DNA of 64,000 nt from Streptomyces dengpaensis. GTDB taxonomy: Bacteria; Actinomycetota; Actinomycetes; Streptomycetales; Streptomycetaceae. The stretch lies in assembly GCF_002946835.1 (NCBI RefSeq), contig NZ_CP026652.1, positions 4,092,001 to 4,156,000 of the forward strand, given 5' to 3'. Position numbers and translations under genes: made by a program. The notes beneath the pieces were generated by a model that saw nothing but the letters and a program-made list of their open reading frames with translations, was not told where the DNA came from and made no database searches. Below are positions 49,634 through 54,235 of the stretch, in pieces; position 1 is the first letter of the stretch, and each line of letters opens with the position of its first letter.

Positions 49634-50017
49634 ATGGGCTCGTATCCCGACCTGTTCGACGAGTGCCGCGTGGTGCGGGCCGGCGGTGAGCTGGACCTGA
49701 CGACCGCCCCGGCCTTCGCCCACGACCTGGAGAGCGTCCGTCACGGCACCTGCCGCGTCTTCCTCATCGTCGATCTGAGCGGTGTGACGTTCGTGGACGG
49801 GAGCATCCTGGAGCCGCTGTGCGCGGCATGGGAGGACTGCCACGAGCGGCTCGGGTGGATGCGCGTCGTCTACACGCGGCCGGGTACGGGTCTCGTGTTC
49901 CTGGCCGGCGGCCTCCTGGAGCGGTTCCCCCGGTACGCGAGCGCCCAGGACGCCTGGCAGGGCGTACCCGCCGACCGTGGAGAGCAGCGTCCCCCGCCGG
50001 CGGACCGATCCGCGTAG
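49634..50017 (+). CDS. STAS-domain protein, copy 2
   Basis: The 127-residue protein has CRVVRAGGELDLTTAPAFAH and VFLIVDLSGVTFVDGSILEPL, the STAS fold with Ser in VDGS as the probable phosphosite. AGGAG nine bases before ATG 49634 decided the start over ATG 49625. It leads a STAS-ANTAR-ANTAR row like the one starting at 19690, without the GNAT gene. Confidence 0.8.
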   Translation: MGSYPDLFDECRVVRAGGELDLTTAPAFAHDLESVRHGTCRVFLIVDLSGVTFVDGSILEPLCAAWEDCHERLGWMRVVYTRPGTGLVFLAGGLLERFPRYASAQDAWQGVPADRGEQRPPPADRSA

Positions 50018-50081
50018 TGTGCGGCGGGAACTGGACAGCACCTCGCCCCGAGTTGTGCCGGCCGCTGCGGAATGGATACCG

Positions 50082-50828
50082 GTGATCAGCGACGGCATGG
50101 CCGATGTCCTGCGGTCGCTGCGCCTCGACGGGGGCGGGGACCCGGCGCGGGCGTGCGCGCGTGCGCTGGGCGCCGACGGTGTCGCGCTGTCGCTGCTCGT
50201 GGGCAGCGGACGGACGGCGGAGCCGCTGTGGCACTACCCCGACGTGAGCGCGCGGTTCGAGGAACTCCAGTTCACGGTGGGCGAGGGCCCGGGGCCGGAC
50301 GCGGTCAGCGCCGGAGCGCCCGTCCTGGAGCCCGACCTCGACCGGGTGCGCTCCGACCGGTGGCCCGCGCTGCTGGGGCCCGCGCAGGAGATGGGCGTGC
50401 ACGGCGTGTGCTGCTTCCCGCTGGGCATCGGGGCGATCCGAGTGGGCGTACTGACCGTGCTGTGCGCCGCGGACCGCAGGATGAGCGAGCAACCGTCGGC
50501 GGACGCGCAGGCCCTGGCCGCCGCACTGACCGGCGCGATCCTGAACGGGGACCGGCGAGGAAGCCGGAGTGGGAGCGGAGACGGTCCCGGGCTCGACGCG
50601 TTCCTGGAGCGGCCGTCCGGGCTGAACCGCGCGGCAGTGCACCAGGCCACGGGAATAATCAGCGTCCAGCTCGGGGCGCCCATGGAGGAGGCCCTCCTGC
50701 GCCTGCGGGCCCACGCCTACAGCAGCGAGCGCCCCCTCGGGGAAGTGGCGGAGGACGTGGTCGCCCGCAGGCTCCGTTTCGACGACGATGTGAGCGGGCC
50801 GTATTCGCCCGACGGTGGAAAGGGATGA
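50082..50828 (+). CDS. GAF and ANTAR domain regulator, paralogue of 20773
   Basis: The 248-residue protein has EELQFTVGEGPGPDAV and GVCCFPLGIGAIRVGVLTVL (GAF-like), then a Gly/Ser-rich linker and AVHQATGIISVQLGAPMEEALLRL...EVAEDVVARRLRF (ANTAR). The GTG at 50082 was chosen; ATG 50097 is an alternative. Its stop overlaps the next start (ATGA), so the two ANTAR genes are coupled. Confidence 0.83.
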   Translation: MISDGMADVLRSLRLDGGGDPARACARALGADGVALSLLVGSGRTAEPLWHYPDVSARFEELQFTVGEGPGPDAVSAGAPVLEPDLDRVRSDRWPALLGPAQEMGVHGVCCFPLGIGAIRVGVLTVLCAADRRMSEQPSADAQALAAALTGAILNGDRRGSRSGSGDGPGLDAFLERPSGLNRAAVHQATGIISVQLGAPMEEALLRLRAHAYSSERPLGEVAEDVVARRLRFDDDVSGPYSPDGGKG

Positions 50829-51587
50829 TCGGCATGGCCCGCGAAAGACGTCTGGCCGAGATCTTCGTGGAGGTCGCGGACTCCCTGGTCGAGGATTTCG
50901 ACGTCATCGACCTGCTGCAACGGCTGTCCACGCGCTGTGTCGAGCTGCTGGACGTCTCGGCGGCCGGGATCCTGCTCGTCGACGCGCACGACGAGTTGCA
51001 GGTCATCGCCGCCTCGGACGAGCACACCAGGCTCCTGGAGCTGTTCGCGCTCCAGCACGACCAGGGCCCGAGCGTGGAGTGCTACCGCACCGGTACGGCC
51101 CGGACGAACATCGGCCTGAGCTGTCCGGGGACAACGGCGGGCTGGTCCCGCGTCGCTGTACGGGCCCGCGAGACGGGCTACGCGGTCACGCACGCGCTGC
51201 CGCTGCGTCTGCGCAACCGGGTCGTCGGTGCGCTCAACCTCTTCCAGCGCACACCGCAGCCGCTCGGCGAGGACGACATCGCGCTCGCCCAGGCGCTGGC
51301 CGACATGGCGACCATCGCAATCCTGCAGCAGCGCACGCTGGAACAGTCGCACGTCGAGAACAGCCAGCTGGGAGACCGCCCTGACCAGCCGCATCCTGGT
51401 CGAGCAGGTCAAGGGCGTGCTGGCCGAGCGCTGGAACGCCTCCGTCGACGACGCCTTCGCCGCCTTCCGCTCGTACGCACGCGCCCATCACCTGCGTCTG
51501 TCGGAGCTGGCCGCCCGGATCGTTGCGGGCGACTTCGACACCGCGGCCATTCCGGCGCCGGCACGACCCGGTGGTCATCAGGACTGA
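50825..51587 (+). pseudogene. GAF-ANTAR gene broken by a +1 frameshift
   Basis: The first frame reads a GAF protein like 21613 (LAEIFVEVADSLVEDFDVID..., TGYAVTHALPLRLRNRVVGALNLF, LEQSHVENSQL). At about 51370 the sense moves to another frame that holds the ANTAR domain (ETALTSRILVEQVKGVLAER..., LSELAARIVAG). One extra G in GCTGGGAGACC would restore it. A sequencing error is possible. It is coupled to the preceding gene by ATGA. Confidence 0.8.
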
Positions 51588-51599
51588 TCACCCCGGCAC

Positions 51600-51798
51600 C
51601 GCGTGGCGCGCAGCCCACCGGCCGGGCCTGCAGCCAGCGGGCCTCGCAGTGATAGCCCGGCATCACCTGGGCCACGGCCAGGGTGACCAGTTCCGCGTCG
51701 GTCAGCCGGGGCGGTCGCCCCCGCCACCGCGGGGTCTTCAGATGGTCATCGACGTGCACGTACAGTGCGGTCAAGAGGGTGTCTAACTCGGGCGTCAC
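51600..51798 (-). pseudogene. IS982-type transposase, N-terminal fragment
   Basis: From GTG 51798 the strand reads VTPELDTLLTALYVHVDDHL, then RGRPPRLTDAELVTLAVAQV and HCEARWLQ, the N-terminus of IS982-like transposases. The DDE domain is missing, replaced by the 3' end of the ANTAR gene. It marks a past insertion and deletion. The rest of the gap up to 52076 shows only short TGTGGCA-type repeats around 51970. Confidence 0.65.
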
Positions 51799-52076
51799 AA
51801 CCCGATGTTGGACACCCTCCCCGCGTCCGTGAACCCTGCAAACGGAACCACTCGTCCAGCCCTGCTCACGACGCATCGGTCCGTGCTGGAGGTCAGTGCC
51901 GCCCCCGGCCGCGAGGTGTGGTGGCGCCGGTCACCTCAACCCCGCCGCGGCCGATGCCCGGAATGTGACATATGTGGCATGTGTGACAATATGGCCTGTG
52001 TGGCACTTGGTGCTTGTGGGAATTTCTTTGTTGAACCCTCGGCTGAGAGGGCTCAAACAGGCGAGAGGAGTGGATC

Positions 52077-52175
52077 ATGATCGCCAAGCTGCTCGGCAAG
52101 CTGTCCTTCACCCGCCAGTACGGTGCGTACGGGGCCCACGAATGGGATGCGTACGCCGGCGACGACCGGGTCTGA
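52077..52175 (+). CDS. 32-residue peptide, candidate P450-modified RiPP precursor
   Basis: ATG 52077 with GAGAGGAG six bases upstream (the best ribosome site nearby) encodes MIAKLLGKLSFTRQYGAYGA followed by HEWDAYAGDDRV. The N-terminal half is a basic amphipathic leader (K, L, R). The C-terminal half is rich in Tyr and Trp (Y15, Y18, W23, Y26), the residues cross-linked in P450-made RiPPs. A hairpin lies just after it, then the P450 gene 105 bases downstream on the same strand. Known P450 RiPPs (biarylitides, cittilins, atropopeptides) have this layout. The assignment is inference; the sequence shows only the gene, the site and the arrangement. Confidence 0.6.
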   Translation: MIAKLLGKLSFTRQYGAYGAHEWDAYAGDDRV

Positions 52176-52182
52176 CCGCACT

Positions 52183-52212
52183 GCCGGCGGGCGCCCCCGG
52201 GCGCCCACCGGC
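52183..52212 (+). terminator. Hairpin between peptide gene and P450 gene
   Basis: GCCGG and GGGCGCC arms pair perfectly with GGCGCCC and CCGGC. There is no T-run, so partial read-through is likely. Such attenuators let a precursor be made in excess over its enzyme. Confidence 0.55.
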
Positions 52213-52279
52213 TCCCAGCCACGCTGCCGACGATATCGGCCTGGACAGTCGGCAAAGTACGAGAGTCAGTGACGATCTC

Positions 52280-53581
52280 ATGGGCCGAATGAATGAGCCG
52301 CCGCGGTTGCCCGAAGGCAGCTTCGCGGCCTGGAGCCACGACCGGCTAGCACTAGCGCGCCGTGGCGCTGACGAGTGCGGGGACGTCTGGCAGCTGGAGT
52401 CGGGTGTCTACGTAGCCGCTACGGCCGGGCCGTGTGAAGAAGTCCTGCGCCGCGCGCAGGACTTCCCCAAGGCATCCTCGCCTCTCTTCCCGCCGTTGAA
52501 GCGGTCGAGCGGAGCACCGACGTCTGAGGAGCGTGCGCACGCTCACGCCGCCCGCATGCGCGGACTACGCCCGCAGGCGGTTGCAGCCCGGATCGGTGAG
52601 ATTGCGCCCAGGGCCGCTCTATTTGCTGACCAGTGGCCCACGGGCCAGGACGTCGAGATTCTGCCCCCGGTCCGGCACGCCCTGGCAGAGATCGGCGTGC
52701 GCTACCTCTTCTCCGAAGACGCTCCCACCCTGCTGCCCTTTGCCTCACAGCTCTTCCTGGCCCGGGAGGTGCTCGTACGCCCCTCGCGCTGGGTATGGCC
52801 GCGCTGGATCCCCACACCGGCACGGCGGTTCCGCACACGGCAGCAAGTCGCCTTCACCAACGCTTTGCGGCCCATCGTCCGCCGGCGCCGTTCATCGGGC
52901 CGGCTCGGTGACGACATGCTGGGACAGATGCTCCGGTCCTCCTCCCGCTACGGCCTACTGCCAGAAGAGGCCATCCTCGACACTCTCCCCGGAATCACCG
53001 TCGCGACCTTCGAGACACCTTCCCGGGCAGCCGGATGGATCCTGCTCCACCTGGCCCGGCACCCCCAGGCAGCGGACCGCGTCGCGGCCGAAGCCGCCTC
53101 GCTGCCCGCGGACCCGGCCGCGACGACCAGCACCCACCTCGACAGCCTGCAATACACCCAGGCACTGGTACGCGAGGTGCTCCGACTGCACCCCCCGAGC
53201 TGGCTACTGACCCGGCGCGCCACGCGACAGACCCAGCTCGCCGACTACACCATCGACGCCGGGTCCACCGTTCTCGTGTGCCCCTACACCGCCCACCGCG
53301 ACGCACGGGAACACCCCGAGCCGGACCGGTTCCAGCCCGAGCGCTGGCTCGATGATTCGGGCTCGCCGGCGAAACCCGGGGCCTTCCTCTCCTTCGGTAC
53401 CGGGCCGCATGGCTGCGAGGGAGCCGCTCTGGCCATGGCGATGCTGACGCTCCTGACTGCGCAGACCGCCCGCCGCTACCGCTTGAGCGAGCCGCCCGGA
53501 CCGGAACCCAGCTACCAGGTCACCACCTTCGAAGGTCTCGCAACTGTCGGCTTGCGCCTGCGTGCCACCTTGCTCAGCTGA
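52280..53581 (+). CDS. Cytochrome P450
   Basis: The 433-residue protein has the K-helix EVLR (near residue 298, LVREVLRLHPPSWLL), the PERF-like EPDRFQPERWL, and the heme loop FGTGPHGCEG with the cysteine near residue 378. The I-helix reads PGITVATFETPSRAAG, with ETPS in place of the common acid-Thr pair. Length and motifs are complete. No ferredoxin or reductase gene is adjacent. The ATG at 52280 has only a weak ribosome site; ATG 52289 is possible. With the peptide gene upstream, it may cross-link aromatic residues of that peptide; otherwise the substrate is unknown. Confidence 0.88.
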   Translation: MGRMNEPPRLPEGSFAAWSHDRLALARRGADECGDVWQLESGVYVAATAGPCEEVLRRAQDFPKASSPLFPPLKRSSGAPTSEERAHAHAARMRGLRPQAVAARIGEIAPRAALFADQWPTGQDVEILPPVRHALAEIGVRYLFSEDAPTLLPFASQLFLAREVLVRPSRWVWPRWIPTPARRFRTRQQVAFTNALRPIVRRRRSSGRLGDDMLGQMLRSSSRYGLLPEEAILDTLPGITVATFETPSRAAGWILLHLARHPQAADRVAAEAASLPADPAATTSTHLDSLQYTQALVREVLRLHPPSWLLTRRATRQTQLADYTIDAGSTVLVCPYTAHRDAREHPEPDRFQPERWLDDSGSPAKPGAFLSFGTGPHGCEGAALAMAMLTLLTAQTARRYRLSEPPGPEPSYQVTTFEGLATVGLRLRATLLS

Positions 53582-53677: not shown

Positions 53678-54235
53678 TCATGGTTCTCTCATCGTGTGTC
53701 GCTGGTCGAACTCGTTGGCGAGCATGCCCATCATGACGAGGTCGTGGTGCCGGCCGGCGAAGAAAACGTGTTCCCGCAAGCGCCCCTCCTCGGTGAAGCC
53801 GAGCCGACGGGTAAGTGCCAGCGATGCCTCGTTGTGGGCGAAGATCGCTGCCAGGCATTTGTGATAGCGCCGCTCGGCAAACATGAAGCGCAGCAGCAGC
53901 ATTACGGCTTCTGCCGCGTAGCCCTTGCGCCGGTGGTCAGAGCCGATCGCGATATCGAACTCGAACCAGCCTGAACGAGGGCCGGTGCGATGTGAGCCGA
54001 CTGTGCCAACCAGCGCTCCCGTGGCCGTCGATTCGACTGCCAACCGGAAGCGGTCGTCATCGTACTTGGCAACGGCTTGTTCCTTCGCCCAGGCACGGTA
54101 GCTCTCGGCGGACCGCGGTAGATCCAGCCGGTTCCCTCGCTGCCCGTCATCGTCGGCGAAGCGCATGAACGCTGTCCAGTCGTCGGGCTCGATAGCGCGT
54201 AGGCGTACCCGTTTACCAGTCCAGGACGATGCCAT
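53678..54235 (-). CDS. GNAT acetyltransferase (RimJ/RimL type)
   Basis: The 185-residue protein starts MASSWTGKRVRLRAIEPDDW and has FDIAIGSDHRRKGYAAEAVM (the acetyl-CoA loop RRKGYA), then HNEASLALTRRLGFTEEGRLREHVFF. This is the ribosomal-protein or small-molecule acetylating branch. A GTG at 54250 is an alternative start. It converges on the P450 gene across 96 bases. An acetyl transfer step in a peptide pathway is possible but unproven. Confidence 0.83.
   Translation of the reverse strand: MASSWTGKRVRLRAIEPDDWTAFMRFADDDGQRGNRLDLPRSAESYRAWAKEQAVAKYDDDRFRLAVESTATGALVGTVGSHRTGPRSGWFEFDIAIGSDHRRKGYAAEAVMLLLRFMFAERRYHKCLAAIFAHNEASLALTRRLGFTEEGRLREHVFFAGRHHDLVMMGMLANEFDQRHTMREP

Follow-up and report, generated by a model that had tools for sequence, protein, structure and literature searches.

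A short open reading frame lies directly ahead of a cytochrome P450 gene, on the same strand, in the 64,000-nucleotide stretch of DNA analysed here (the window; C1:4092001-4156000 of an 8.7 Mb genome). The question it raises is whether the frame encodes the substrate of the P450, a peptide of some other use, or nothing at all. A first-pass annotation had proposed a minimal P450-modified RiPP locus, with a lone P450 and no other biosynthetic gene, and had left room for a chance ORF. The best explanation reached here is a compact P450-cross-linked RiPP cassette, probably with a small ring-shaped peptide as its product (probability roughly 0.8).

Two sets of genomes carry the argument. A genus survey searched 392 genomes with the 32-residue peptide; 49 named loci came from scanning GTDB genomes for two patterns derived from the P450 alignment, and 48 of them make up, together with the window, the 49 peptide rows referred to below. 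Some strains are in both sets, and the counts of the sets are kept apart.

Recurrence of the peptide-P450 pair

Peptide and P450 recur together. The genus survey found 21 peptide copies across 20 genomes, and a same-strand P450 of the window type adjoins 20 of the 21 copies, with 60-92% identity outside the window. In the 49-locus set, whose named members belong to Streptomyces, Kitasatospora and Actinacidiphila, the precursor lies 5' of a homologous P450 in 48 loci; the gap spans 80-310 nt and is usually 90-110 nt (40 of 49 rows). The first-pass annotation had named the want of a conserved peptide beside homologous P450s as grounds for dropping its reading; the peptide proved to be conserved there.

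Two loci depart from this pattern. In L037 (Streptomyces sulfonofaciens), which has a sister-clade P450, no recognisable peptide lies within 10 kb on either side. A GNAT-like gene is found upstream of that P450 (L037:9233-11308), and the precursor may have been lost, moved or strongly diverged. L031 is a second precursor copy in genome G327; its 1.5 kb of fetched sequence shows no P450. Two blocks of ~90-93% identical DNA, one upstream of the gene and one following its stop, are shared with the first G327 copy. A copy that has the upstream and stem-loop regions and stands without a P450 fits a substrate gene.

Among 72,556 records filed as plasmids, two carry a P450 at >80% identity, both with the peptide (L094:2809 and L098:2806). 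These records are linear, 2.8 and 1.5 Mb in size, and one is typed as mobilizable.

The putative precursor peptide

The predicted precursor gene (52077..52175, + strand) runs from ATG 52077 to TGA 52173-52175 and encodes 32 residues, MIAKLLGKLSFTRQYGAYGAHEWDAYAGDDRV; conservation, dN/dS and pairing with the P450 speak for it. Its Shine-Dalgarno region, GCGAGAGGAG (52060..52076, + strand), holds a block, GaCAgGCGAGAGGAGtGCAt, that is conserved among relatives, and a GGAG or AGGA core lies at most 15 nt 5' of the peptide start in all 49 homologous rows, so that the strong ribosome site claimed at first pass is confirmed together with the 32-residue frame. Repeated CATATG/TGTGNCA-like elements at window positions 51965-52007, ~70-110 nt 5' of the precursor start, are partly conserved in relatives and might act as an operator or promoter.

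The translation divides into a leader-like part, MIAKLLGKLSFTR, a core, YGAYGAHEW(DAY), and a tail, AGDDRV. The predicted core covers codons 14-27 (52116..52157, + strand), with Y15-G16-A17-Y18 invariant, W23 nearly so, and a second motif W23-Y26. The three Tyr and one Trp already noticed in the C-terminal half are thus Y15, Y18, W23 and Y26; all four fall within the tryptic fragment 14-31 of the window precursor, QYGAYGAHEWDAYAGDDR. The 49 rows give 44 distinct strings, or 43 when GTG starts are read as Met, and in these 43 peptides L5, L9, R13 and Y15-G16-A17-Y18 are invariant. Of the 43, 39 have Trp at residue 23 and three at residue 22, and L036 has Tyr instead.

Precursor lengths range from 23 to 32 residues (49 rows). 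The tail is variable, and it is missing in eight of the 49 rows (23-24 aa), six of these ending in HDWT or HDWS. The Asp/Arg end of the window peptide had seemed odd for a core expected at the very C-terminus; that doubt is resolved, the conserved part being YGAY...W, and from the alignment the end is read as a variable follower or as part of a second core half. W-x-x-Y occurs in 31 of 49 rows, the window included (W23-D-A-Y26), and W-x-x-H in six of 49, so that two aromatic i,i+3 motifs are common in the family. Spacing and tail change without loss of the aromatic pattern, as in YGAYGAHEWDAY, YGAYGVAWDAY, YGAYRLYW and YGAYLPYY.

Across codons 2-19 of 47 main-clade precursor genes dN/dS is ~0.29, with zero nonsynonymous changes at codons 15-18; across tail codons 24-28 (39 genes) it is 0.78. 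Synonymous changes at the YGAY codons 15-18 are also few among the main-clade genes, and some RNA-level constraint is therefore possible. The peptide matches no family in Pfam (E<=0.001) or NCBIfam (E<=10). A chance ORF, the fallback of the first-pass annotation, is rejected because the peptide and its position are conserved and the gene is under purifying selection.

The cytochrome P450

The P450 (52280..53581, + strand; 433 aa) is the predicted cross-linking enzyme. Its assignment draws on PF00067 (E=1.7e-48), the motifs and the structural model, and its best start is ATG 52280. The catalytic motifs are intact: EVLR, PERW and the cysteine motif FGTGPHGCEG; the I-helix region has ATFET. AlphaFold gives a confident model (pLDDT 89), and the closest solved structures found by Foldseek are CYP184A1, CYP204A3 and CYP51-type structures, at 18-24% identity; no RiPP P450 title occurs among the best 50 Foldseek matches. 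All 11 NCBIfam matches are below their own cut-offs, the top P450 models being albaflavenone synthase (131 of 700 bits) and ApyO (128 of 525 bits). Membership of a named small-molecule P450 family is rejected on these grounds, every NCBIfam cut-off being missed and the solved structures being at most 24% identical; the first-pass reading, which would have yielded to such an assignment, gains from this.

A protein search with the window P450 returned 140 relatives at E<=1e-30, and one with a 60%-identical sister P450 returned 192 at E<=1e-20; among the 120 matches listed for each search, the named relatives belong to Streptomyces, Kitasatospora and Actinacidiphila. A class-wide search at E<=1e-40, with four candidates scored per genome, found the P450 in three of 394 genomes, all of the same genus. 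By sequence comparison, the window P450 family is a lineage of its own.

Of the alignments with known RiPP P450s proposed at first pass, those with tryptorubin-type (atropopeptide) and biarylitide-type P450s were run, with controls obtained through core patterns. The tryptorubin-type pattern matched in eight of 246 genomes, and five of these eight matches were compared (L087 and two without a locus were left out); these five control P450s are mutually 62-83% identical. The biarylitide-type pattern gave three matches in two of 246 genomes, which does not exceed the reversed pattern with its matches in six. The biarylitide-type control is a tandem pair in G247 (L095, L097), taken as real because a P450 follows the pair; L096 was dropped, having no P450. 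Both control labels are putative, being assigned from the motif and from known core sequences. Five family P450s are 21-27% identical to the five tryptorubin-type P450s and 21-24% identical to the one biarylitide-type P450; at this distance P450 function is not transferable by homology.

The intergenic stem-loop

A conserved stem-loop (~52183..52212, + strand) follows the precursor stop, so that the order of hairpin and complete same-strand P450 given at first pass is upheld. In 46 of 47 main-clade rows (L082 was left out of the count), standard pairs make up 90.6% of 595 cells, vs at most 48.1% with the partner strand slid. Covariation is modest, with five pairs changed on both sides, a number reached by 25 of 500 shuffles; the window strand folds no better than shuffles (z -0.98), and a U-run is absent. 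Ahead of the P450, 40 of 49 rows have an SD-like core. The stem-loop is likely a processing, stabilising or expression-ratio element; of these roles, the one proposed here is that it would set the precursor:enzyme ratio.

Neighbouring genes

Contrary to the first-pass view, the P450 is usually not alone: a convergent GNAT gene is present in 33 of 49 loci and a reductase-P450 fusion in 13 of 49. In the window the GNAT (Acetyltransf_3) N-acetyltransferase lies at 53678..54235 on the − strand, and its recurrence beside the peptide is the reason for including it in the cassette. The fusion protein (874 aa) joins a ferredoxin-reductase-like half (Pyr_redox_2, Reductase_C) to a P450; GNAT is present in all 13 fusion loci, and nine of these lie within the clade with N14. 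L045, L050 and L054 were provisionally counted as lacking the fusion, on <4.2 kb of sequence 3' of the P450 start, and in the window it was not found within 10 kb on either side. The fusion occurs in L083:10075-12696 and the 12 other loci; the one member scanned showed no ferredoxin domain between its halves, and the protein is possibly an unusual self-sufficient oxidase.

Apart from the peptide-P450 pair, GNAT and the fusion, no gene family recurred in more than four of 50 regions with a simple ORF caller, which misses genes (it found GNAT in only 27 regions, the window included). Upstream of the cassette, a GAF-ANTAR regulator at 50825-51587 (+ strand) is split over two frames, with GAF in one and ANTAR in the other, through a frameshift in the gene or an error of sequencing; a further GAF-ANTAR gene immediately precedes it (49977-50828). 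An ORF at 51409-51876 (− strand), just upstream of the cassette, has no Pfam match; its first part presumably resembles the start of an insertion-sequence transposase.

GNAT homologues in the 33 loci are 78-93% identical. Of the 392 genomes, with eight candidates scored in each, 74 contain a GNAT match reaching E<=1e-30; the members with at least 79% identity adjoin the peptide in 15 of 15 cases, 1.4-1.7 kb away on the opposite strand, and the next-best GNAT is 73% identical. One GNAT subfamily is thus a close neighbour of the peptide. Since the subfamily lies beside the peptide in every case and no further neighbour family but the fusion recurs in more than four of the 50 regions, the cassette appears to move as a unit. 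By analogy, the GNAT is predicted to acetylate the peptide N-terminus, or else to serve self-protection.

Weighing the alternatives

Instead of tailoring the peptide, the GNAT may be a passenger or serve self-protection, a minority possibility that is to be taken seriously and is compatible with the RiPP cassette. The gene is on the opposite strand, it is missing from 16 of 49 loci (and its subfamily from five of the 20 peptide-bearing genomes of the survey), and GNAT relatives at 39-73% identity are encoded elsewhere, whether or not the genome has the peptide. Against this stand the 15 of 15 members of the subfamily beside the peptide and the three sister-clade loci, which carry upstream, on the same strand, a GNAT-like gene of another kind (confirmed by Pfam for L035). 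As to peptide type, all 34 GNAT-bearing rows have tailed YGAYGx[HN] peptides, and the 15 rows without GNAT comprise eight tailless and seven tailed ones. Freed of ancestry, the apparent association of tail and GNAT comes down to at most four independent pairs, one of them on well-supported branches; the P450 tree requires eight changes of GNAT presence, vs a shuffled mean of 13.8.

The peptide itself may be read in two other ways, both less likely than a RiPP cassette. It could be a leader peptide acting in cis: together with the stem-loop, its translation would attenuate or couple P450 expression, and the P450 would act on a small molecule. The fixed gene order with its usual spacing of 90-110 nt (40 of 49 rows), the conserved stem-loop with weak covariation and the scarcity of synonymous variation at codons 15-18 would suit such an element, but amino-acid constraint spans leader and core, the spacing extends to 281 nt (L036) and 310 nt (L082), and in the orphan copy, whose 1.5 kb of fetched sequence holds no P450, peptide and upstream region are still intact. 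Nor would an attenuator predict that GNAT is confined to rows with tailed YGAYGx[HN] peptides, and a cis-acting role is accordingly improbable. Slightly less probable again is an unmodified small protein, that is, a P450-binding partner, redox helper or secreted signal, for which the conserved N-terminal half, the adjacent P450 and the existence of an orphan copy can be cited; it is opposed by the dispensable tail and by the invariant Tyr-Gly-Ala-Tyr with the near-invariant Trp after it, which is the make-up expected of a P450 cross-link site.

The preferred reading, a P450-cross-linked RiPP cassette, draws on the peptide-P450 pairing in both sets, evolution at the protein level, the aromatic pattern kept throughout, the intact P450 motifs and confident fold, the GNAT subfamily and the orphan L031 copy. 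L037 without a peptide, the low identity to the control RiPP P450s, the scarce synonymous variation at the YGAY codons and the loci and genomes that lack GNAT count against it. Of the first-pass interpretation, the P450-modified RiPP stands, supported by pairing and conservation; the solitary P450 does not, and the cross-linking chemistry would be as set out below.

A proposed pathway

From the role of the leader to the function of the product, what follows is what we infer; docking, joining of Y15 and Y18, trimming and acetylation are proposed by analogy with known P450 RiPPs as described in excerpts of PMC11450843, PMC12352619 and PMC8708641. The short precursor would be translated from its own strong ribosome site, and its helix-prone N-terminal half (L-x3-L-x3-R) would act as a recognition leader that docks on the P450. 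The enzyme would then oxidatively join Y15 and Y18 of Y15-G-A-Y18 (i,i+3). A second link may form at W23 in many members, either to Y26 in the W-x-x-Y forms or to Y18. Leader and tail would next be trimmed by host proteases, a step also proposed for tryptorubin, and acetylation of the freed N-terminus would fall to the convergent GNAT.

More tentatively, and short of what we would expect to hold, the family could form a P450-cross-linked RiPP class apart, with a separate P450 lineage and two stacked i,i+3 motifs (Y-G-A-Y; W-x-x-Y/W-x-x-H). It would have grown stepwise from peptide and P450, through the gain of a dedicated N-acetyltransferase, to the gain of a ferredoxin-reductase/P450 fusion. 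This fusion would supply its own electrons and oxidise the second site, chiefly in forms without the second tyrosine.

There is demand for P450-cross-linked peptides as drug scaffolds and as biocatalysts, and the precursor genes of P450 RiPPs are short enough to go unnoticed. With dozens of sequence variants and three tailoring levels, the present family is a compact Tyr-x-x-Tyr series of natural origin; it opens to direct test the substrate rules, an acetyltransferase acting in P450 RiPPs and the part played by the fused reductase-P450. If the reading is right, peptide cross-linking is carried out by P450 lineages that are only distantly related.

Comparison with known P450 RiPPs

The published systems are taken here as they appear in excerpts of the cited reports. 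Known P450 RiPPs have a peptide-then-P450 layout and use generic proteases (PMC8708641, PMC11450843). For atropopeptides, including tryptorubin, the excerpted text describes a dedicated protease as absent from the characterised clusters and reports acetyltransferases and extra P450s among the neighbours (PMC11450843). Atropopeptides resemble the cassette, in so far as these excerpts describe them, in a short precursor straight before a same-strand P450, a basic N-terminal leader and an aromatic core with i,i+3 spacing. They differ in their leader motif, KSLK (or RSLK, ESLK, KSRK, KPLK, PSLK), which is found in none of the 49 cassette peptides; KSLK leaders are present in the six tryptorubin-type control peptides read. 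They also have Trp at core position two (xWxxxx), whereas the cassette has the invariant YGAY and Trp at residue 22 or 23, and a class-defining P450, to five examples of which the cassette enzymes are 21-27% identical. Membership is rejected on all three points.

Biarylitides, too, combine a minimal peptide with a P450, and characterised members are N-acetylated by an acetyltransferase for which the excerpt of PMC8708641 names no enzyme. Their precursor is a pentapeptide with aromatics at positions 3 and 5, in contrast to 23-32 residues in the cassette; the link is between residues one and three of a tripeptide, and the P450 of the one biarylitide-type control is 21-24% identical. Precursor length and P450 identity lead to rejection of this class as well.

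In aminopyruvatides a P450 makes a Tyr-Tyr C-C link (excerpts of PMC13192836, PMC11002830), there in Y-x-Y and in the cassette in a predicted Y-x-x-Y. Their P450 family, ApyO, is the second-best NCBIfam match (E=3.2e-37), with 128.2 bits vs a cut-off of 525; the one match to the MNIO (ApyH) family PF05114 in this genome is at C1:2027165, separated from the cassette by >2 Mb. With the ApyO cut-off missed and no MNIO gene in the cassette, aminopyruvatide membership is rejected. Cyptides (roseovertin, rubrin, lapparbin) and cittilins, compared by their descriptions in excerpts of PMC12299652, PMC11002830, PMC12352619 and PMC13383641, share P450-made aryl cross-links in ribosomal peptides; the Trp-His join of roseovertin at i,i+3 (PMC11002830) resembles W-x-x-H of six cassette rows.

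The open literature searched gave no relevant report of the peptide sequences or of YGAYG, YGAY or YxxY with a P450; large P450-RiPP surveys may list the family, and its novelty is provisional. What the family has in common with P450 RiPPs in the broad sense is a conserved short precursor paired with a P450 (48 of 49 loci; 20 of 21 copies) and conserved core aromatics, Y15 and Y18 being present in all 43 distinct peptides.
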